A DNA stretch of 64,000 nt from Rhodohalobacter sp. SW132 (GCF_003390325.1 NZ_QUOK01000002.1:372001-436000), one strand, 5' to 3'; shown: positions 11,074 through 49,610, counted from the first letter of the stretch. Numbers and translations are program-made. Notes: generated by a model from the letters alone, not told the origin.

Positions 11074-11490
11074 TTATGACATCAAATATTTCTCAGATAC
11101 ATCTACCAGAAAGTTTCTCAAGAATCTTCTGCCTAAAAGCAGATCATATTTCATGTTGCTTCTGTCTGTTAGCGTGAGTTCAATGGATCTTTTTTTTCCA
11201 CAAAATATGGCCGACTCTTTTATAGCGTAGCGTGTCTGGACCTCTCCGTTTGAACTTTTCACTTTACGAACATCGTGAAGTTCTGATTTAAATCGCTGTT
11301 TACGATATGACGGGTGCTCCGGATCAAAAAGGGAAAACACGACAAACTCTTTACCATCAATCTTCTCTACTTCAATATGGTGGCAATGGAGACTTGAGGT
11401 ATACGCTCCGGTATCAACCTTTGCATCCAGTCTGTCGACAGACCAAGCTGGAAAACTTATTTTTTCAATTCGTCCTATAATTTTCTTCAA
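11074..11490 (-). CDS. RimB-like 'ATP-dependent zinc protease' family protein
   Basis: A 138-residue member of the family annotated as ATP-dependent zinc protease (PF05618). The N-terminal [15 protein letters not shown] contains the DTGA motif seen in retropepsin-like aspartic proteases, followed by [10 protein letters not shown] and the C-terminal [10 protein letters not shown]. In systems with RimK, such proteins are reported to trim the poly-glutamate tails. It is the first gene of the rimK operon on this strand. Confidence 0.82.
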
Positions 11491-11555
11491 CTGACTAACT
11501 TATTTTAACATCAAAAATTCTAAAAATAACAGCTTTTAAACTCGGTTGCATTCAC

Positions 11556-11563
11556 TATTTTTG
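11556..11563 (+). promoter_or_regulatory. candidate -7 promoter element
   Basis: TATTTTTG matches the Bacteroidota -7 consensus TAnnTTTG exactly and lies 36 nt before the ATG of the PLP enzyme. A clear -33 TTTG is missing, so this is weak. Confidence 0.3.
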
Positions 11564-11599
11564 AACCGGACGATTTATTTTAAAAAACAGTAACCGTTT

Positions 11600-12697
11600 A
11601 TGCCCAATATACCTCTTTCCCGCCCGAAAGCCGTTGTTTTTGAACAACATTGTAAATCAAATATTAAATCCATGCAGAACAAGGCCCAATCTGCCGGAGC
11701 TGTTTTCAGGCCACATTTTAAAACACATCAATCACTGGAAATCGGGCAATGGTTTCGTGATGAAGGTGTAACTGGAATTACGGTCTCAACCCCCGAAATG
11801 GCGAAATATTTTGCTTCTGACAGCTGGGACGATATCACAATCGGATTTCCATTTTACAGTGGTCAGATTCATGAGATCAACGAACTAACAAATCATTGCT
11901 CTTTAAAATTGTTTGTGCACCGGCCGGAAGACGTCCGGTATCTGGCAACTGAACTGACGAATCCTGTGTCTATATTTATTGAAATTAACGCGGGGTATGG
12001 CCGAAGTGGTGTTAATATTTATAATTCTGAGCTTATTCGGGAGATTATCAAGGCGTGTGAAGAATCTCAAAAAACTAGGTTTTACGGGTTTTACATTCAT
12101 GATGGAGATACCTATAAAGTTCACGGCTCCTCAGAAGTAGAATCTGTAATTAAACGAGATTTCAGCGCTTTAAATAATCTGAAAAAAAACTGGCCTGACG
12201 CATCTGTTTCACTGGGTGATACTCCCTCCTGTTCACTTCTAAATGAATTTCCAGGTATTGATGAACTTACTCCCGGTAATCTCGTGTTTTATGATCTGAT
12301 GCAGGTAAATATCGGCAGCTGTACTTATAGCCAGGTGGGTCTTCTTATAAAAGCTCCGGTTGCCCAGCTAAAACCGAAATCGAATGAATGTATTATTCAT
12401 GGAGGTGCGGTTCATTTTTCGAAAGACAATATTCACATGGACGGTAAACAATCGTACGGGCAGCCGGTAACTGTATCTGATAATGGGAAAATCAAACCCA
12501 TAAACGGAAGCTCGCTTGTGGCTCTTTCGCAGGAGCATGGCACCGTTACCGGGTTAAAGGAACTGCAAAATGCGCTTGGTAAAAATGAGTTAGAGGAAAT
12601 TTGGATCTGTCCTGTTCACTCTTGTTTGACCGCAAATCTCTTTAAAGAGTACCACACTTATTCCGGATCTGTAATAGGTAAAAAAGTTTTATCATGA
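11600..12697 (+). CDS. D-threonine aldolase / D-serine dehydratase-like PLP enzyme
   Basis: A 365-residue fold-type III (alanine-racemase-like) PLP enzyme. Lys41 in RPHFKTHQS is the expected Schiff-base lysine. SLGDTPSC matches the PLP phosphate region. The C-terminal PVHSCLTANLF carries the His and Cys that bind the metal in D-serine dehydratase/D-threonine aldolase. The likely reaction is cleavage of a D-3-hydroxyamino acid, but the substrate cannot be read from sequence. The stop overlaps the next start by 4 nt, so the two genes are coupled. Confidence 0.88.
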   Translation: MPNIPLSRPKAVVFEQHCKSNIKSMQNKAQSAGAVFRPHFKTHQSLEIGQWFRDEGVTGITVSTPEMAKYFASDSWDDITIGFPFYSGQIHEINELTNHCSLKLFVHRPEDVRYLATELTNPVSIFIEINAGYGRSGVNIYNSELIREIIKACEESQKTRFYGFYIHDGDTYKVHGSSEVESVIKRDFSALNNLKKNWPDASVSLGDTPSCSLLNEFPGIDELTPGNLVFYDLMQVNIGSCTYSQVGLLIKAPVAQLKPKSNECIIHGGAVHFSKDNIHMDGKQSYGQPVTVSDNGKIKPINGSSLVALSQEHGTVTGLKELQNALGKNELEEIWICPVHSCLTANLFKEYHTYSGSVIGKKVLS

Positions 12698-41434: not shown

Positions 41435-43303
41435 TTAATCGCTGTTCAGGTCCAGTCTCCGCTCTTCTCTGATCAGGCGAGAGAGCCATGCTTCCGGCTG
41501 CCTGTTTGATTTTATTTGATGTAAATATTCAATTGAGTCATCAAAGGATGAAAATCCTTTATATGCTACAAAGAAGAACCCCGTAACCGGATTATAAAGC
41601 ATGTGTGCATCGAGCCCTTCATTTTTAAATGAATTGTAGAGATTGTCGGCATATCCCCTGTTCTTAAATGCTCCGCCAATCACATAGTATTCGTAATCTT
41701 CATGATTGCCATTCACATTCTGAAGCTCCATTGCCCGCATATCACGCGTGTAGTCTGATACATTTCTGCGGCTTACACTGCTTTCAGAAACTCCGTTATA
41801 TGTAGGCTCCGGGCGGATATCAGAGAGATTAATCTCTTTCAACTCAATATTGCTGTTTGACCTGGCTGAATGATTTGAGTTTGAGTTCGAATCAGATCCA
41901 GTTATAGAAGAATCCTGATTATCCAAAGCCATATCCGGCAGCGTATGATCAACTGGAATGTCGGATTGTGGAGATGGCGGGACCGGTGATTTATCGCTGA
42001 TATAATTCATATTATTTCGATGCTCATCTTTACGCTCGGCGAGCAGTTCACCTTTACTTTGGAATGCGCGATGAAGCCGATTATCGAGCGATTCTTCAAG
42101 TTCTGCCTGCAACAGTACTACAAGCTCCGATTCCTGCACGTCGGTTGAGTTATATCCGAAAAGATATTTCAAACCGAAAAACCAGCCGGGCAGATCTTTA
42201 AGAATTGGAATTCCCCTTCGAATTTCAGTCTGTTCAGTTCTGTAAAGTCCGGCAATCACCGTACTCTCTCCATCCAGGAGAAGAGCGTGTGTATTCGCCT
42301 GTTGCTTGTTTATAATAGTACTCACCGGATCGGGCTGTGCGGAAGAACGTTCTGCTTCGAGATCCAGATAGATTAATGTAGTATCTCCAATCTCAACAAT
42401 TTGCGGGCGAACCAGCAGAATAGTACCGGTACTGAAGAACTGATCGGTTACATTCCCCGCAAAATCACGCTGTTTGATCGAGAAATCCTGCCCCACCTGA
42501 ATGCGGCCCTCTTCACCATCCATGACTTTCACGCTCGGTGTAGCCAGAATCTGCCCAAGGTTATCAGCTTCAAAAGCACTGAAAAGAGCCTGGACTTCAA
42601 TTCCGCCACCGATATCGCCAAAGTTTATGAGCGAGTTAAATACGTTTTGCGATACGTTCTGCGCCCCTCTGGCATTTACGGAAACGAACTGGCTTCCGCC
42701 AAACTCAATGCTAGGCAATTCACCATCCCCACCGCCGTCAGTTATAAAGTCAGTAATATTATCGGGGACATTATTGGTAAGCGTTGACCAATCTACACCA
42801 ATTTCGCGCAGGGCACGTTTATTTCCTTCAAAAAACGTTGCATTGATGCGAATTTCCCGGGTGTTTGTTGAAATTCTCCGTCCTTCAATTTCTTCGGCAC
42901 CTCTTCGCTGCACAGTATCTTCCCCTTCGCCAAGCCGTTCCCGGGCTGCCTGGGCTGTCACAATTTCCAGAATATCATCTGATTCGAGAACGACAAGATT
43001 CTGAACCCGCATTATATAATTGAGCGCATCTTTCCAGTGCATTGCTGGCAGAGATACACCAATAGGCCCCGAGGCATTGGAGCGGTCGATGATAAAGCGG
43101 TTTTCAAAACGCTGAGCATAAGTGGTTAGAACCTCTACTGCATCCTGAAACGGTGTTCTTCTGTCGAATGAAATCAATTCTTCAGGATTGGTATACTCCC
43201 TCGGAAGATTGTCTGTCGCCTGAGATTGCAGAAGTTCAGAAACTCCAAGAACAAATAGTAGAGTGAGTATTAATGCTTTCATAGTTCGTTTATAGATTTT
43301 CAT
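41435..43303 (-). CDS. secretin (GspD/PilQ-like) with C-terminal SPOR domain
   Basis: A 622-residue outer-membrane channel protein. Signal peptide (about 1-28), an STN-type domain (about 45-115, TPFQDAVEVLTTYAQRF), a secretin core (about 145-395) with ILATPSVKVMDGEEGRIQVG and the typical VIAGLYRTEQTEIRRGIPILKDLPGW. A Ser/Asn-rich linker (about 440-500) then leads to a SPOR-like domain (about 540-605, YYVIGGAFKNRGYADNLY). SPOR domains bind denuded peptidoglycan, so the channel may be anchored to or placed by the wall. It is the last gene of the operon and overlaps the gene upstream by 4 nt. Confidence 0.88.
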   Translation of the reverse strand: MKIYKRTMKALILTLLFVLGVSELLQSQATDNLPREYTNPEELISFDRRTPFQDAVEVLTTYAQRFENRFIIDRSNASGPIGVSLPAMHWKDALNYIMRVQNLVVLESDDILEIVTAQAARERLGEGEDTVQRRGAEEIEGRRISTNTREIRINATFFEGNKRALREIGVDWSTLTNNVPDNITDFITDGGGDGELPSIEFGGSQFVSVNARGAQNVSQNVFNSLINFGDIGGGIEVQALFSAFEADNLGQILATPSVKVMDGEEGRIQVGQDFSIKQRDFAGNVTDQFFSTGTILLVRPQIVEIGDTTLIYLDLEAERSSAQPDPVSTIINKQQANTHALLLDGESTVIAGLYRTEQTEIRRGIPILKDLPGWFFGLKYLFGYNSTDVQESELVVLLQAELEESLDNRLHRAFQSKGELLAERKDEHRNNMNYISDKSPVPPSPQSDIPVDHTLPDMALDNQDSSITGSDSNSNSNHSARSNSNIELKEINLSDIRPEPTYNGVSESSVSRRNVSDYTRDMRAMELQNVNGNHEDYEYYVIGGAFKNRGYADNLYNSFKNEGLDAHMLYNPVTGFFFVAYKGFSSFDDSIEYLHQIKSNRQPEAWLSRLIREERRLDLNSD

Positions 43304-44151
43304 CGTTGTACCTCCAGTGATACCGTCTCCACAATTCCGCCTTTATTCAGCCGGAAAATGGCATAGCCCTGATTAATATTGATAGATTCGAGGCGCCCGA
43401 GATACACCCGGTCCCTTTCTTGTAATGTTTGTAACCGACCGTTCTGATCCAGCAAGTACACGATTCCGCTCCCGATCCCAACAAGCTGGCTCTGTTCCAC
43501 ATCAATCAAATCATCTGTGTTGGGATCAACATTTCTGATGAGCGGAAAGAATGGATTGTGTGAAGCAAACTGGATCTGTCCGGATACACCCGGTGTGTTC
43601 CTTGCATTGAAATAATTGTGACGGTCGTAGAAACTCCGCAATCTGAAATTGAATGTGACAAACGTATATTCATCCACCTGACTAACCGGTGAGATTACCA
43701 GTTCCTCAATTTTCTGGACCGGTTCGCTGTTTTCAATGCGGGTCATGAAATTTAGTACCGCTCTGTACGGTCCCCTACCGGCCAGCTGAGAGGTTACTAC
43801 TCCATACCGGTCGGTTTGCGTGGAATCTGTATAAATATAGTCGAACTGAATTGGGTCCGTATCGCTCAAAATGGAGAGAAAGCGGTAGACCTGATCCGGA
43901 TTATTTGTCCGGAAAAGTGTTTTATCAAAATTCTCGATAAACTCTTTAGACTGAACAAATTGCTGTTCAAGATCCGGCAAACGGTCTGCGATTTCTCGCT
44001 TGTTATCGTATTCAGCCTGATCTGTCTCGATTGTTTGTTCAAGTTTATCAATTTGCGGTAGCTGATAGAAGTGAATAATGAGATATCCGCCTGCTGTAAT
44101 AAAAATCAGCACCATCAGCAGAATTAAAGTATTTCGGAGTGCGTACGACAT
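43300..44151 (-). CDS. PilO-like inner-membrane protein with PilP-like C-terminus
   Basis: A 283-residue protein with one N-terminal helix (about 8-30), a coiled coil (about 33-80) and a PilO-like ferredoxin-fold region up to about 185. The C-terminal 60 residues (GIVYLLDQNGRLQTLQ, VYLGRLESININQGYAIFRLN) resemble the PilP/GspC homology domain that contacts the secretin. It thus seems to combine the alignment-complex parts PilO and PilP in one chain. It lies between the PilM-PilN-like gene and the secretin. Confidence 0.7.
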   Translation of the reverse strand: MSYALRNTLILLMVLIFITAGGYLIIHFYQLPQIDKLEQTIETDQAEYDNKREIADRLPDLEQQFVQSKEFIENFDKTLFRTNNPDQVYRFLSILSDTDPIQFDYIYTDSTQTDRYGVVTSQLAGRGPYRAVLNFMTRIENSEPVQKIEELVISPVSQVDEYTFVTFNFRLRSFYDRHNYFNARNTPGVSGQIQFASHNPFFPLIRNVDPNTDDLIDVEQSQLVGIGSGIVYLLDQNGRLQTLQERDRVYLGRLESININQGYAIFRLNKGGIVETVSLEVQR

Positions 44152-44153
44152 GG

Positions 44154-45896
44154 CTATTGAGTTGAAGCTTGTTGAATTTCAGCAGATTCACCGGGTGTAA
44201 AAAGAGAGCGGTCATCTACGACTTCCCGAATCATCATGGAGAATGAAAAGATATCGCGCTCCCGTAATTCCTGTTTACGAACATTGAGCAGCGTTACCGT
44301 TTCAAACTGACCGGCAAGCAGGGGTATTCTGTCCTTAAAAAGCGAATAGCCATCTACCATCAGCACATCATCATTCTGCCTGAACGAGGTGATCCAGGTG
44401 CTGCCCGTATTCTGTAAAGCCCTGTTGAAGCGATCCATCGTTACTGTCCACCGGATGTTATCTTCATTAAGTTCTCGCAACAGGTTAAGCTGATCCTGCA
44501 TCAGGCTGAGTTCCTGTGAAAGTTCTTCAGATCGTGTCACCAGGGGATTCACATCTGCAATCATCATATTCAGCTGATTAGAGCGAAGCTGAAGAGAATC
44601 GATTTCAGCACTGTTTTGCTGATAGAAAAAGTTTAGTATAATTGGACTAAGCCCTATCAGCACAAGGAGTAACACACCATGCCATTGAAGCCTGAAGATC
44701 TTTTGCTGATCGACCACATAGGATGGAAGAAATGACAGATCGATATTTTTCCGGATATCACCCTTTGCCGCAATTTCTGCCAGCCCGATCGCGGTTGTAT
44801 AAAACGGTACGATCTCTGTCAGAGATTCTTCGTAGAGCAGTTTATCGCTGTTGAAGGCGAACTCTTCAACATTCAGTTCACTGAAACTTGACTGAAAAAA
44901 ATCGGTGACTTTTTTGCCGTTACCATTATTAAATATGATCAGCTGATCGAGTGCAGGGACTTCCCCGGTATCAATCTGAAAGAGAATTTTTGAAAATATC
45001 GTACTCAAATAATTCTTGTGATCAAACCCTTCGTTAATCACAGGAGAAACCTGCAGGAGCTGATCCCCTTTCATAAAAAGCAACCGGCTCTTCTTTTTCC
45101 CGATCTGCAGAAGTGCAGTTATAATTTCAGAATTCATCTCATAATGGGTACGATACATTCCCATCATTACCGATTCATCGGGAAGCACATCCTGAACCTG
45201 ACTTTTCAGGTTAAACCGTTCCCCGGCCTGAAGCATAAGTTTCAGTGTCGGCGATTCATTATCTACGGAACCAATAATGAGTGTACCATCGTCACGGATC
45301 TTGAAATCGTAGAGTTCTTCATTCGGTTTCCGATTGTAAAGAGCATATAGTTTCTCTTCAAGAATTTCGAGAACTTCCTTCTTTTTGATTTCTGAATAGT
45401 TTAAATCGCTCAGAAACTGAAAAACCGTATCTCCGGCAGGAATATTAACCGCTACCTGCTTGTTGTCTGATTCAACTGTTGTGAGGTAATCGTAGATCAG
45501 TTTTTCATTCGAAATCGAATCATCAGATTGAGAAACCAGGTCTTCATTCTCATCCTCAGAGAAAACATCAGCATCCAGGTCATCCAGATCGATCTCTCCA
45601 AAAATGTCGTCGTCGCTGGATTTGGAGGATCCTTCTTTTTTTGATTCCGGTTCGGGATCAGGACTATCATCATCAAGCCCGAAAATCAGATCGGCATCGA
45701 GTTCATCATCGTCAAAAACATCTCCGGCGGGCTCTTTTTCAAGAACTGATGCAGGCTGAGCTTTCTTAATCGGCTCTACAAGCGTCAGCTGATCTACACG
45801 AATAAGTCTCAGTTGATTTTTTTCTGAAACAACACGGGCAACTTTTATGGAATCCCCTTCCAGGCTAATGCCGATATATTCTTTAGGTTTAAACAT
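44154..45896 (-). CDS. PilM-PilN-like fusion protein
   Basis: A 580-residue protein. The N-terminal part (1-45 and about 130-395) resembles the actin-like PilM/GspL domain, starting KEYIGISLEGDSIKVARVV. It is interrupted by a highly acidic insert (58-128, many Asp/Glu/Ser). A transmembrane helix (about 402-424) and coiled coil (about 430-475) lead to a PilN-like periplasmic domain (TWITSFRQNDDVLMVDG, FSFSMMIREV). Normally PilM is cytosolic and PilN is a separate membrane protein; GspL has a comparable one-chain layout. It sits 5 nt after the PilT-like gene. Confidence 0.75.
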   Translation of the reverse strand: MFKPKEYIGISLEGDSIKVARVVSEKNQLRLIRVDQLTLVEPIKKAQPASVLEKEPAGDVFDDDELDADLIFGLDDDSPDPEPESKKEGSSKSSDDDIFGEIDLDDLDADVFSEDENEDLVSQSDDSISNEKLIYDYLTTVESDNKQVAVNIPAGDTVFQFLSDLNYSEIKKKEVLEILEEKLYALYNRKPNEELYDFKIRDDGTLIIGSVDNESPTLKLMLQAGERFNLKSQVQDVLPDESVMMGMYRTHYEMNSEIITALLQIGKKKSRLLFMKGDQLLQVSPVINEGFDHKNYLSTIFSKILFQIDTGEVPALDQLIIFNNGNGKKVTDFFQSSFSELNVEEFAFNSDKLLYEESLTEIVPFYTTAIGLAEIAAKGDIRKNIDLSFLPSYVVDQQKIFRLQWHGVLLLVLIGLSPIILNFFYQQNSAEIDSLQLRSNQLNMMIADVNPLVTRSEELSQELSLMQDQLNLLRELNEDNIRWTVTMDRFNRALQNTGSTWITSFRQNDDVLMVDGYSLFKDRIPLLAGQFETVTLLNVRKQELRERDIFSFSMMIREVVDDRSLFTPGESAEIQQASTQ

Positions 45897-45901
45897 ATGG
45901 C

Positions 45902-47161
45902 TTAATAATCTAAATCGTTAAACAGCTGGAACAGCCTTTTTTTATTATTGGCGTTATTTATCGCCTCTTCTTTAGAAATCTTTCCTTCATCAAACAATCG
46001 CTTTAAATCCTGCTCCATAGTGGTCATACCCAGTTCACTACCTTCGGCGAGCATCTGGTAAATTTCATTTACGTTATCATTTCGGATAGCCGCACGAACA
46101 GAAGGAGTTACAAGCAGAACCTCTTTTGCCATCACCCGCTTTCCATCGAGACTTGGAATTAGTTTCTGACTAATTACGCCCGTTAACACATCAGCAAGGC
46201 GGGAGCGAACCCTGTTCTGTTCCTCTGTGGGTACTTCACCGAGAATACGCTCAATACTTTCCATTGCTGATGATGTGTGCAGGGTGCCGAATGTTTTGTG
46301 GCCTGAATCAGTAATTTCAAGAGTTGTCATAATGGTTTCCGGATCACGGAGCTCACCAATAACAATGATATCGGGATCCTGCCGAAGCGCCTGGACAGCC
46401 CCGTTTTTGAAAGAGGTTACATCACGGCCCACTTCCCTGTGGCGAACTACAGAGCGCTTTGGCGTGTGAATCAATTCAACAGGAGAAGCAATGATTACGA
46501 TGTGAGAATCAACCGTTCGGTTATTCGCATCGATGATGGTATCGAGCGTACTTGATTTACCTGAACCGGTAATACCTGTGATAAGAGTCAGCCCGTATTT
46601 GTAATATTTGAGACTCAGGGCTTTTGCTACTTCTGGATGAACGCCAAGCGTTTTGAATGGGCGGATTTCCTCATCAATTTTCCGCATGTTCAGTGCAAGA
46701 TGCTCCAGGTCGAAATATGCATTGGCACGAAATCGCTGTGCTTTTTCGCCATTCTGCGTTGGTAAAGAGTAGGAAAAATCCAGGTTCCTGTCTTCCAGCA
46801 GTCTTCGGCGCTGTTCATCTGTGATAATGCTGTGAATCAGAAGGTCGGTTTCTTTATAACTTAACTCTTCGGGCAAATTGAGCGGGGATTTGTTACCAAA
46901 CACACGGTACCAGATTTTGCCATTACACCCTGTTCCCCCGATATCAATATCTGAAGCCTCATTTTTTCTCATGTAGAGTAAAAATGAGTGCAGCGAACTC
47001 ATCAGTTGTTTTCTTTTGAGGTCGTCCAGAGTCTTAATTCGTTTCCCAAGCTCTTCATGGTAGTCCATTCCTCTGAACGAGTCTGGCATCTGTCCAAGAA
47101 TCTCTGCCGCGATGGTGCGAATCGGAGCCAGTGATACTTTAGATGTTTCTGTTTCAACCAT
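45902..47161 (-). CDS. PilT/PilU-like retraction ATPase
   Basis: A 419-residue secretion ATPase with Walker A GITGSGKSST (about 198-207), the Asp box and Walker B DPDIIVIGELRDPETI, and the His box HKTFGTLHTSSAMES. The C-terminal PilT features are VRAAIRNDNVNEIYQML and GMTTMEQDLKRLFDEGKI. PilT enzymes depolymerise pili. An N-terminal extension of about 60 residues before the PAS-like region is longer than in typical PilT (about 345 residues). It precedes the PilM-PilN gene. Confidence 0.88.
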   Translation of the reverse strand: MVETETSKVSLAPIRTIAAEILGQMPDSFRGMDYHEELGKRIKTLDDLKRKQLMSSLHSFLLYMRKNEASDIDIGGTGCNGKIWYRVFGNKSPLNLPEELSYKETDLLIHSIITDEQRRRLLEDRNLDFSYSLPTQNGEKAQRFRANAYFDLEHLALNMRKIDEEIRPFKTLGVHPEVAKALSLKYYKYGLTLITGITGSGKSSTLDTIIDANNRTVDSHIVIIASPVELIHTPKRSVVRHREVGRDVTSFKNGAVQALRQDPDIIVIGELRDPETIMTTLEITDSGHKTFGTLHTSSAMESIERILGEVPTEEQNRVRSRLADVLTGVISQKLIPSLDGKRVMAKEVLLVTPSVRAAIRNDNVNEIYQMLAEGSELGMTTMEQDLKRLFDEGKISKEEAINNANNKKRLFQLFNDLDY

Positions 47162-47322
47162 GAGTAGTGATATTTAATAATTATTAAGAAATTCTAATGT
47201 CACACTATATAGATTATTTCAGGGGTGATTTGTTACAAAAAAACCGAATTAGGTGTGAAGCTGTTAAACGTTTAAGAAATTACCCCGGAAAAGATGTGAC
47301 TGCAGCGGATGCAATCACCTCT

Positions 47323-47826
47323 CTACCACTTCTTATCGTCAAGAATTCGTTTTTTTAAAGTGAAAAGCTGAAGATTCATACTTGATATTTTATTTTGCTG
47401 AATCTCGATGATGTTTTTCGTAAAGATATTGAACAATTTTTCAGGGCGTTTTCTAAAGTAGTTTAGCGCCATATACCGCTCATATTTTAGCAGAATGCAA
47501 TCTTCCTCGCACGTAACGCGTGCCATTCGGTTGTTTTTACTGAATAAAAATGTCTCTCCCAAGAAGCTGTTCGTTTCAAGTGTAGCCAGCTGAATATTTT
47601 CTTTCCAGATTGAGACTTTACCACTGGCTACTAAATACGCTGAACTAACATATTCATCTTCACTGATGATCGTATCTCCTTCAACAAACCGGGTTTCTTC
47701 TCCCAGTTCAAGAAATGCGAGAATATCTTCGTAGTGAAAGTTTTTTAACAGATGTGGCGGATCTTTCAGAAGATCACGAAGATGCTTTTGCATGATGTCG
47801 GATTGAAACTTTTTTTGCTCGTCCAT
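47323..47826 (-). CDS. cyclic nucleotide-binding domain protein
   Basis: A 167-residue protein with a single CRP-like cNMP-binding domain (about 30-140: FVEGDTIISEDEYVSSAYLVASGKVSIW, FLGETFLFSKNNRMARVTCEED). No HTH DNA-binding domain follows. The Arg expected at the phosphate-binding cassette (RA in FGE-x-RA) is displaced: the cassette reads LGETFLFSKNNRMAR. It lies between the PilB- and PilT-like ATPase genes, 11 nt after the former, and may regulate the motor. Confidence 0.8.
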   Translation of the reverse strand: MDEQKKFQSDIMQKHLRDLLKDPPHLLKNFHYEDILAFLELGEETRFVEGDTIISEDEYVSSAYLVASGKVSIWKENIQLATLETNSFLGETFLFSKNNRMARVTCEEDCILLKYERYMALNYFRKRPEKLFNIFTKNIIEIQQNKISSMNLQLFTLKKRILDDKKW

Positions 47827-47837
47827 AGCGTAATGTA

Positions 47838-49610
47838 CTAATCGTCTACTGTGATTGCCATAATTTCCTCAGCGGTCGTTAAACCTTTCTTGATCCTCTC
47901 GCGCCCAGAAGCTCTCAGCGTTAGCATTCCATTCTTTACCGCTGTTTCTTTGATGATTTCTTCATCAATTTCGCCGCCTGATTCCAGGATAATACGTTTT
48001 ATCTCTTTGGAAAAGTAGAGGGCTTCCATAATTGCAACACGTCCCTTAAAACCGGTATCAAAACACTTTTCACATCCTACAGGTTTATAAAATGTTGTTT
48101 CAGCAATTTCTTCATCATTAAACCCTATTCCTTTTAACGTTTCCGGATGCGGCTCATACACCTCTTTGCAGCTGCATAATTTTCGCACAAGCCGCTGAGC
48201 CATAACCAGGTTTACAGCATTGGCAATCAGGAACGGCTCAATTCCCATTTTATAGAGCCGTGAAACCGCACTTGGAGCATCATTTGTGTGAAGCGTTGAA
48301 AATGTAAGGTGACCTGTATTTGCCATTTTGATGGCTACTTCTGCGGTTTGTAGATCACGCATCTCCCCTACAAGAACAATATCGGGATCATGACGCAGAA
48401 TACCGCGAATAGCTTGTTCGAACGTCATATTTTTACTGATTTTAAGCTGACGGGCGCCATTAATCAGATACTCAACCGGTTCTTCAATAGTGAGCACATT
48501 TTTTGTCGGATCAATAACATAATACAGGGCAGCTACAAGCGTAGTAGACTTTCCGCTTCCTGTTGGGCCTGTGATAATTACAATCCCCGATGGTTTTTCT
48601 ATAGCCTTCACAAAGTCAGCTTTGGCCTGTTCCTGAAGCCCCAGCACGTTCAGGTCGGTTATGACCTCACGATCGTCCAGTATCCGAATTACCACCGACT
48701 CAAATTTCCGTTCAAACTGGGCACCAACCATTGGCATGATGGAAACCCGGTACCGGATATTATAGTTATCCACCGCACGCTGAATAAATCCATCCTGTGA
48801 GCTGTCGCGCTCAAAACGGTCAACGTTCCGGGTTTTATCTTTAATAACCGCCGTGATGGCTTCCGGTTTCACATTTTTTTGCTGATACCAGAGCTGGAGC
48901 TTTCCATCAATCCTGAACCGGATATCGGTCGTAGATGGACCACTGGGGATGATGTGCATATCACTAACGCCCCTTCGCACTCCCTCAACGAGCATCCCTT
49001 CCACCAGGGAGTTAAGCATACTCTGGTTGATCTCCGCATCAATTTCTGACTCATCAACATCCTCTTCGGTTTCGTTGATTTGGCCATCTTCCATGTCGAT
49101 ATCTTCCAGAAGATCGAGGAACTCATTTTTCTGCTCATACACTTTTGAGAGCGTATCTTCAATGAGCTCGTACCGGCAATAGCGGATGTCGTACTCTTTA
49201 TAGTTTAGCCGCGAAATAATCGTAGACAATTCCGGGTTTGAGGGGTCCGGAGTTGCAATTGTAAGTGAGGTGGCGTTCATTGCTACTGGAATAGCTTTTT
49301 GATGCACCAGTTCATCAATCACCTCTTTAGGAATCCGTTCTACATAGGATTTAATCTTCTCAATCTGATCATGGTCGAGCTGCTCGAGTCCGAAGTAAAT
49401 TTCATCAAAAGCATAAATGCTGGCAATTTCACGCATCACTGCGTGTCGGTCCAGACTCAGATCCTGGTGAAGGATCTGACCAATTCGCCTTGTTGAACCT
49501 TGTGGTTCTTCATTCAAAATTTTGAACGCAAGACTTAACTCTTCTTCACTGATAACTCCCCGGCTGAGCAGCAGGTTACCAATATGTTGTTTTGCGTTAA
49601 CCTTCCCCAT
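47838..49610 (-). CDS. GspE/PilB-like assembly ATPase
   Basis: A 590-residue hexameric ATPase that drives pilus or pseudopilus assembly. An MshEN-type N-terminal domain (about 1-160), an acidic linker (about 165-190), the N2 domain with GVSDMHIIPSG and the core follow in order. Walker A is GPTGSGKST (about 350), Walker B DPDIVLVGEMRD, and the His box LTFSTLHTNDA. The zinc tetracysteine is present as CSC near 482 and CEKC near 520. The gene is the first of the operon on this strand. Confidence 0.92.
   Translation of the reverse strand: MGKVNAKQHIGNLLLSRGVISEEELSLAFKILNEEPQGSTRRIGQILHQDLSLDRHAVMREIASIYAFDEIYFGLEQLDHDQIEKIKSYVERIPKEVIDELVHQKAIPVAMNATSLTIATPDPSNPELSTIISRLNYKEYDIRYCRYELIEDTLSKVYEQKNEFLDLLEDIDMEDGQINETEEDVDESEIDAEINQSMLNSLVEGMLVEGVRRGVSDMHIIPSGPSTTDIRFRIDGKLQLWYQQKNVKPEAITAVIKDKTRNVDRFERDSSQDGFIQRAVDNYNIRYRVSIMPMVGAQFERKFESVVIRILDDREVITDLNVLGLQEQAKADFVKAIEKPSGIVIITGPTGSGKSTTLVAALYYVIDPTKNVLTIEEPVEYLINGARQLKISKNMTFEQAIRGILRHDPDIVLVGEMRDLQTAEVAIKMANTGHLTFSTLHTNDAPSAVSRLYKMGIEPFLIANAVNLVMAQRLVRKLCSCKEVYEPHPETLKGIGFNDEEIAETTFYKPVGCEKCFDTGFKGRVAIMEALYFSKEIKRIILESGGEIDEEIIKETAVKNGMLTLRASGRERIKKGLTTAEEIMAITVDD

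Follow-up and report, generated by a model that had tools for sequence, protein, structure and literature searches.

Six genes lying in one direction in Rhodohalobacter sp. SW132 encode part of a machine resembling type IV pili and type II secretion systems (T2SS), which raises the question of what this partial set builds and where its other components are encoded. The genes are found at positions 41435-49610, all on the minus strand, of the stretch of DNA analysed here (the window; 64,000 nucleotides). An initial annotation had proposed a distinct filament or secretion system that matches neither a classical type IV pilus nor a T2SS, lacks pilins, prepilin peptidase and the PilC/GspF platform, and has its substrates encoded elsewhere. 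Its picture of a fused, secretin-dependent machine with a PilT-family ATPase stands, whereas the T2SS-like oddity gives way to a system like the type IVa pilus (T4aP). The real peculiarity of this system is the lack of a prepilin leader on its pilins and of a prepilin peptidase in its genome.

The cluster in the window and in relatives

The order along the minus strand is pilB-like, cyclic-nucleotide-binding (cNMP-binding), pilT-like, pilM-N, pilO-P and secretin (Table 1). Pfam and NCBIfam profiles bear out the annotated assembly ATPase, PilT-like ATPase, cyclic-nucleotide-binding protein and secretin. The pilB-like ATPase matched TIGR02538 PilB (E 4.7e-130), PF00437 (1.5e-97) and MshEN (2e-6), and the pilT-like ATPase matched the TIGR01420 PilT family (8.3e-96; 321 bits against a cut-off of 319). 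The secretin gave no AMIN match, and its SPOR match (0.0057) lies under the curated cut-off. In Balneolaceae, the secretins extend further at the C-terminus, where they match SPOR weakly; those of more distant relatives, roughly 400-450 aa long, are without this extension.

The two fusion proteins gave weak Pfam matches to PilN and PilO, which were strengthened by profile searches of the PDB. The C-part of the 580 aa protein matched Myxococcus xanthus PilN (3jc8; 2.5e-12), and the structure closest to the AlphaFold model of this protein (pLDDT 77) was that of PilM (Foldseek 4e-12), with VIA-align Z scores of 23.6 for PilM (2ych), 19.6 for FtsA and 14.2 for the T2SS protein EpsL. The proposed PilM-PilN fusion is thus recovered by profile for PilN and by fold for PilM. 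In the 283 aa protein, the N-part matched PilO (3.7e-5 and 0.0045), as annotated, and the PDB profile search of the other half gave no match; this C-terminal domain is putatively PilP-like, as judged from gene position and architecture.

Table 1. Genes of the cluster, with positions in the window.
Feature	Position	Strand	Evidence
pilB-like extension ATPase, 590 aa	47838..49610	-	N-terminal MshEN domain; Walker A/B and Cys motifs
Small cyclic-nucleotide-binding-domain protein, 167 aa	47323..47826	-	PF00027 1.2e-10
pilT-like retraction ATPase, 419 aa	45902..47161	-	TIGR01420; Walker A, AIRN motif
PilM-PilN fusion, 580 aa	44154..45896	-	Actin-like PilM N-part, TM helix, PilN C-part
PilO (PilP-like) fusion, 283 aa	43300..44151	-	PilO PDB profile; PilP/GspC-like C-terminal domain by position
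pilQ-like secretin, 622 aa	41435..43303	-	PF00263 3.5e-29; weak C-terminal SPOR match

Gene order in relatives, a check that the initial annotation had named, was conserved in a sample of 20 fetched and 80 named loci. The usual order is pilA (one to three copies), pilC, pilB, a cNMP gene and/or three minor-pilin-like genes, pilT, pilMN, pilOP and pilQ. Where a locus holds pilC, the gene lies at most two genes from pilA in 50 of 53 cases. The cNMP-binding gene is kept at the same place in Balneolaceae operons, and a PilT-family ATPase is encoded within the operon in nearly all relatives. Chance or mis-called open reading frames were ruled out for the six genes by homology and conserved synteny.

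Several variants of this layout were observed. In Fodinibius/Aliifodinibius loci (L168, L171, L172 and L181), an I-J-K trio lies between pilB and pilT and the cNMP gene is absent; operons of this type and of the window type coexist in at least one genome (bin.26; L155 and L171). Ignavibacteria-type operons (L060, L062 and L063) have a response-regulator-like gene after the secretin, followed by a gene for a long protein of 919-1173 aa. In one relative (G042, L215:3-6874), genes like those of chaperone-usher fimbriae (usher- and chaperone-like) adjoin a minor-pilin trio, as judged by eye.

The rest of the machine and its pilins

The Rhodohalobacter sp. SW132 genome comprises 5.08 Mb in 45 contigs and is 98% complete. 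Profile searches found no T2SSE ATPases in it other than the two of the cluster and no secretin other than the cluster's one; therefore, the genome holds a single such machine. One PilC/GspF platform is encoded on another contig (C3; L011:8164-9492; T2SSF 1.6e-28, GspF 2.9e-46). The two major pilins are encoded on contig C6 (L106:9059-9499 and 11218-11718), and two minor-pilin trios lie on contigs C1 and C10 (L212 and L213), so the substrates are indeed encoded elsewhere. Two membrane-protein genes are situated between the major pilin genes (L106:9642-11134). Absence of PilC and pilins was ruled out, both having been found elsewhere in the genome. Rather than an orphan machine, the cluster is one half of a type IVa-like pilus system, the half for assembly.

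Of the parts annotated as missing, all are missing from the window, but only the peptidase is missing genome-wide. The prepilin peptidase profiles PF01478 and PF06750 gave nothing over cut-off in this genome, and no N_methyl prepilin was found in it even at E 5. To judge by the A24 profiles, the prepilin peptidase is truly missing from Rhodohalobacter sp. SW132.

The genes adjoining pilC encode proteins of roughly 120-165 aa that start with MGQQQLLLVILVTIIVGIATVVAIN or close variants, and every major pilin of the system has the hydrophobic helix at its very start. Upstream and in frame, the first stop lies 0-14 codons away in 61 distinct pilins (one of them cut by the locus edge). In a second set of 109 pilins, retrieved by the pattern MGQQQLLL, the median distance is 3 codons and the maximum 28; the profile search of 148 genomes did not require this pattern. 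With in-frame stops so close upstream, a class III leader cannot be accommodated. A mis-annotated start concealing a leader was likewise ruled out by the upstream stops. A Shine-Dalgarno-like sequence was seen by eye right before the ATG in many, not all, of these genes. Searches of the open-access literature turned up no description of type IV pilins without a leader.

Pfam searches of the pilins and minor pilins returned nothing, and the best NCBIfam match of the pilin was a weak one to GspG (0.011). A pilin profile compared with the PDB matched geopilin best (0.0012), followed by Thermus PilA5 (0.0099), both weakly. Structure prediction with AlphaFold was carried out on the pilin of a Balneolaceae relative (L122), using a 77-sequence alignment; the modelled segment is 70% identical to the Rhodohalobacter sp. 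SW132 pilin. In the model (pLDDT 93.5), residues 2-55 form a helix, and there are five strands. Its 12 best PDB matches in VIA-align were all type IV pilins (Z 8.8-6.1), among them 4noa (8.8), 5v23 (8.4), 4d40 (7.4) and full-length PAK pilin 1oqw (7.1 over 117 residues), and the first non-pilin followed at Z 4.0. Foldseek also placed pilins in the first two ranks, with weak E values of 0.19 and 0.38. On this predicted fold, the leaderless major-pilin proteins are NEVERTHELESS type IV pilins.

In the structure alignment, model residue 4 corresponds to residue 1 of PAK pilin, and the same offset of three was obtained from sequence alignments to geopilin, PilA5 and PilE1 (2m7g, 8qqj and 8pfb). 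It follows that M-G-Q precede the equivalent of mature residue 1, that the conserved Gly14 becomes Gly17, and that Glu5 corresponds to residue 8. At this position each of the 146 distinct pilins has L, I, V, M or Q, so that Glu5 is absent, and the equivalent of Gly-1, the last leader residue, is Gln in 139 of the 146.

The minor-pilin-like I-, J- and K-like proteins start at the hydrophobic helix or a few residues before it. These gave no match in PDB profile searches, and their assignment as minor-pilin-like was made from size, gene order, co-occurrence and weak PilV- and PpdB-like matches. Close to the Glu5 site, at position 6, the I-like proteins (L172:13758 and L129:14107) retain a D or E, in which they differ from the major pilins; this acidic residue could mark a priming subunit.

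Distribution of the system and of the A24 peptidase

In a survey of 148 genomes of the phylum, the K-like minor pilin always accompanied the leaderless pilin, both being found in the same 55 genomes, and the PilMN protein occurred in 53, all within these 55 pilin carriers. By profile search, the A24 peptidase is absent from 48 of the 55 system-bearing genomes, and neither A24 nor an N_methyl prepilin was found in 46. Incomplete assembly as the reason for the missing PilD was ruled out, given that 48 of the 55 are without A24. Two genomes (G046, contig C50; G078, contig C6) have the leaderless system together with N_methyl prepilin matches and no detected A24.

The seven carriers with A24 (G065, G077, G139, G143, G014, G019 and G116) encode it away from the leaderless system. 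There it adjoins a canonical prepilin such as ...ESGFSLTELLIVLAIIGILIMIAVPLYQN; a separate secretin and ATPase usually accompany the pair. In one of these genomes (G014), each of two A24 copies adjoins a GspE-like ATPase, and one of them also adjoins a canonical prepilin. In the ATPase tree, the canonical-operon ATPases form a clade separate from those of the leaderless system (100/100 support).

Furthermore, 15 of 21 additional genomes reached via the named loci are without A24. These include all eight named Balneolaceae isolates (Gracilimonas, Fodinibius/Aliifodinibius and Rhodohalobacter), two Kryptoniota and the tested Ignavibacteria; Gracilimonas mengyeensis DSM 21985 and Fodinibius sediminis DSM 21194, for example, have the leaderless pilin and no A24 match. 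A24 is present in three KSB1 genomes, the Marinimicrobia genome and two Balneola-type genomes, where it perhaps serves other systems. A scan of GTDB species genomes for the pattern MGQQQLLL confirmed 427 loci, of which 80 were kept; these come from Balneolota, Rhodothermota, Ignavibacteriota, Kryptoniota, KSB1, Marinimicrobia and two bins labelled Deltaproteobacteria.

Interpretation and relation to known systems

The cluster very probably supplies the motors and envelope components of a retractable type IVa-like pilus built by polymerising leaderless pilins. A protein secretion system with a T2SS-like pseudopilus in place of a surface pilus is an unlikely alternative, given that the operons of nearly all relatives include the PilT-family ATPase and that the PilM half is nearer to T4aP PilM than to EpsL. 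The same parts do serve short pseudopili, GspG is the best, if weak, NCBIfam match of the pilin, and Denise et al. (2019; PMC6668835) placed the system called T2SS in Bacteroidetes with T4aP, noting that its pilin is divergent. Against these points, some relatives have separate canonical prepilin/A24 operons in addition to the leaderless system, with ATPases of a distinct clade.

The pilins might instead be processed by an unrecognised peptidase, which would make the system an ordinary T4aP with a non-homologous PilD. A24 was detected by family profile only, unrelated membrane proteases exist, and canonical-looking prepilins occur in the two genomes (G046 and G078) without detected A24. However, such a peptidase would find just M-G-Q before the equivalent of mature residue 1, with Gln at the Gly-1 position in nearly all pilins and in-frame stops immediately upstream, and this reading is regarded as distinctly improbable. 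Still less credence is given to the view that the MGQQQ proteins are not filament subunits and that true prepilins went undetected. Pilins diverge fast and N_methyl detection relies on a short profile, but the permissive N_methyl search of Rhodohalobacter sp. SW132 was empty, the MGQQQ genes adjoin pilC and co-occur with the K-like minor pilin across the 55 genomes, and the MGQQQ protein has a predicted type IV pilin fold.

If the cluster serves a retractable pilus of leaderless pilins, each pilin would be translated with the mature hydrophobic helix already at its N-terminus and inserted in the inner membrane N-in/C-out. Removal of Met1 by methionine aminopeptidase, the next residue being Gly, would be the sole trimming, and prepilin peptidase and N-methylation would not be used. 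The I/J/K minor pilins would prime a fibre, into which PilB, with an MshEN-type domain that is possibly c-di-GMP-sensing, and the platform PilC would extrude the pilins. The motor would be kept in line with the secretin PilQ by PilM-N and PilO-P, and retraction of the fibre would fall to PilT. We infer that filaments form and retract, that the N-terminus is trimmed and that the pilus serves adhesion, movement on surfaces or DNA uptake. In ordinary pili, Glu5 mutants are unable to form homopolymers (PMC4471445); therefore, the leaderless system must use other contacts. In place of the charge pair of Glu5 and the N-terminus there may be the polar cap MGQQQ, combined with a hydrophobic side chain where Glu5 would lie, and the first candidate for the source of these contacts is the conserved QQQ of the cap.

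The type IV filament superfamily is defined by a class III signal peptide, a peptidase, an ATPase and a platform (PMC4471445). The class III leader consists of 6-26 aa ending in Gly and is followed by the hydrophobic helix, and both its cleavage by A24 and the presence of Glu5 are regarded as core, near-universal features (PMC4471445). The leaderless system has the traffic ATPase (PilB), the polytopic platform (PilC) and a predicted type IV pilin fold, and its pilins start at MGQQQ with no class III signal peptide. Since two defining features are lacking, as is Glu5, it is not filed as a canonical type IV filament. It is probably a branch of type IV filaments found in several FCB phyla, a retractable pilus with pilins made mature, having neither leader nor peptidase, N-methylation or Glu5.

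The PilT-family ATPase and homologues of PilM, PilN, PilO and the secretin, which mark T4aP, are all present. The system is homologous to T4aP and should work like it: as in Neisseria, Pseudomonas and Myxococcus (PilBCTMNOPQ), there are extension and retraction ATPases, PilC, PilM/N/O homologues and a secretin, together with I/J/K-like minor pilins and a pilin fold with a long N-terminal helix. Unlike T4aP, it is without class III leader, PilD, Glu5 and N_methyl signature; PilM and PilN form one protein, as do PilO and a putative PilP-like domain; and the secretin, with no AMIN match, has a weak C-terminal SPOR match and shares its operon with a cNMP-binding protein. The T2SS has homologous GspE, GspF and GspD, and the PilM-N fusion recalls GspL. 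It differs from the leaderless system, which has a PilT-family ATPase and a PilM half closer to that of T4aP, and neither leader nor GspO. The canonical prepilin/A24 operons of the same phylum (L107-L112 and L114) comprise a GspE-like ATPase, a secretin and pilins of their own and lie in genomes that also have the leaderless system; unlike the leaderless system, they encode leader-bearing pilins (...ESG/FSLTELLIV...) beside A24. These operons might correspond to the 'T2SS' of Bacteroidetes (compare the Cytophaga 'T2SS').

Software detects type IV systems by the signatures of leader, peptidase and Glu5, and this branch appears to do without all three. In the genome of the ignavibacterium Melioribacter roseus, pilT, pilQ, pilB and pilC were noted in 2013, and no pilA or pilD (PMC3534657), an incomplete set that leaderless pilins would explain. 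If the reading is true, it would account for genome papers that list pil genes without pilA and pilD (PMC3534657), and pili would have been overlooked in several phyla. The named Balneolaceae carriers without A24 (n=8) make the reading testable. If true, it would also provide a natural test of what the leader, N-methylation and Glu5 are for, and the minimal definition of a type IV filament machine would change.
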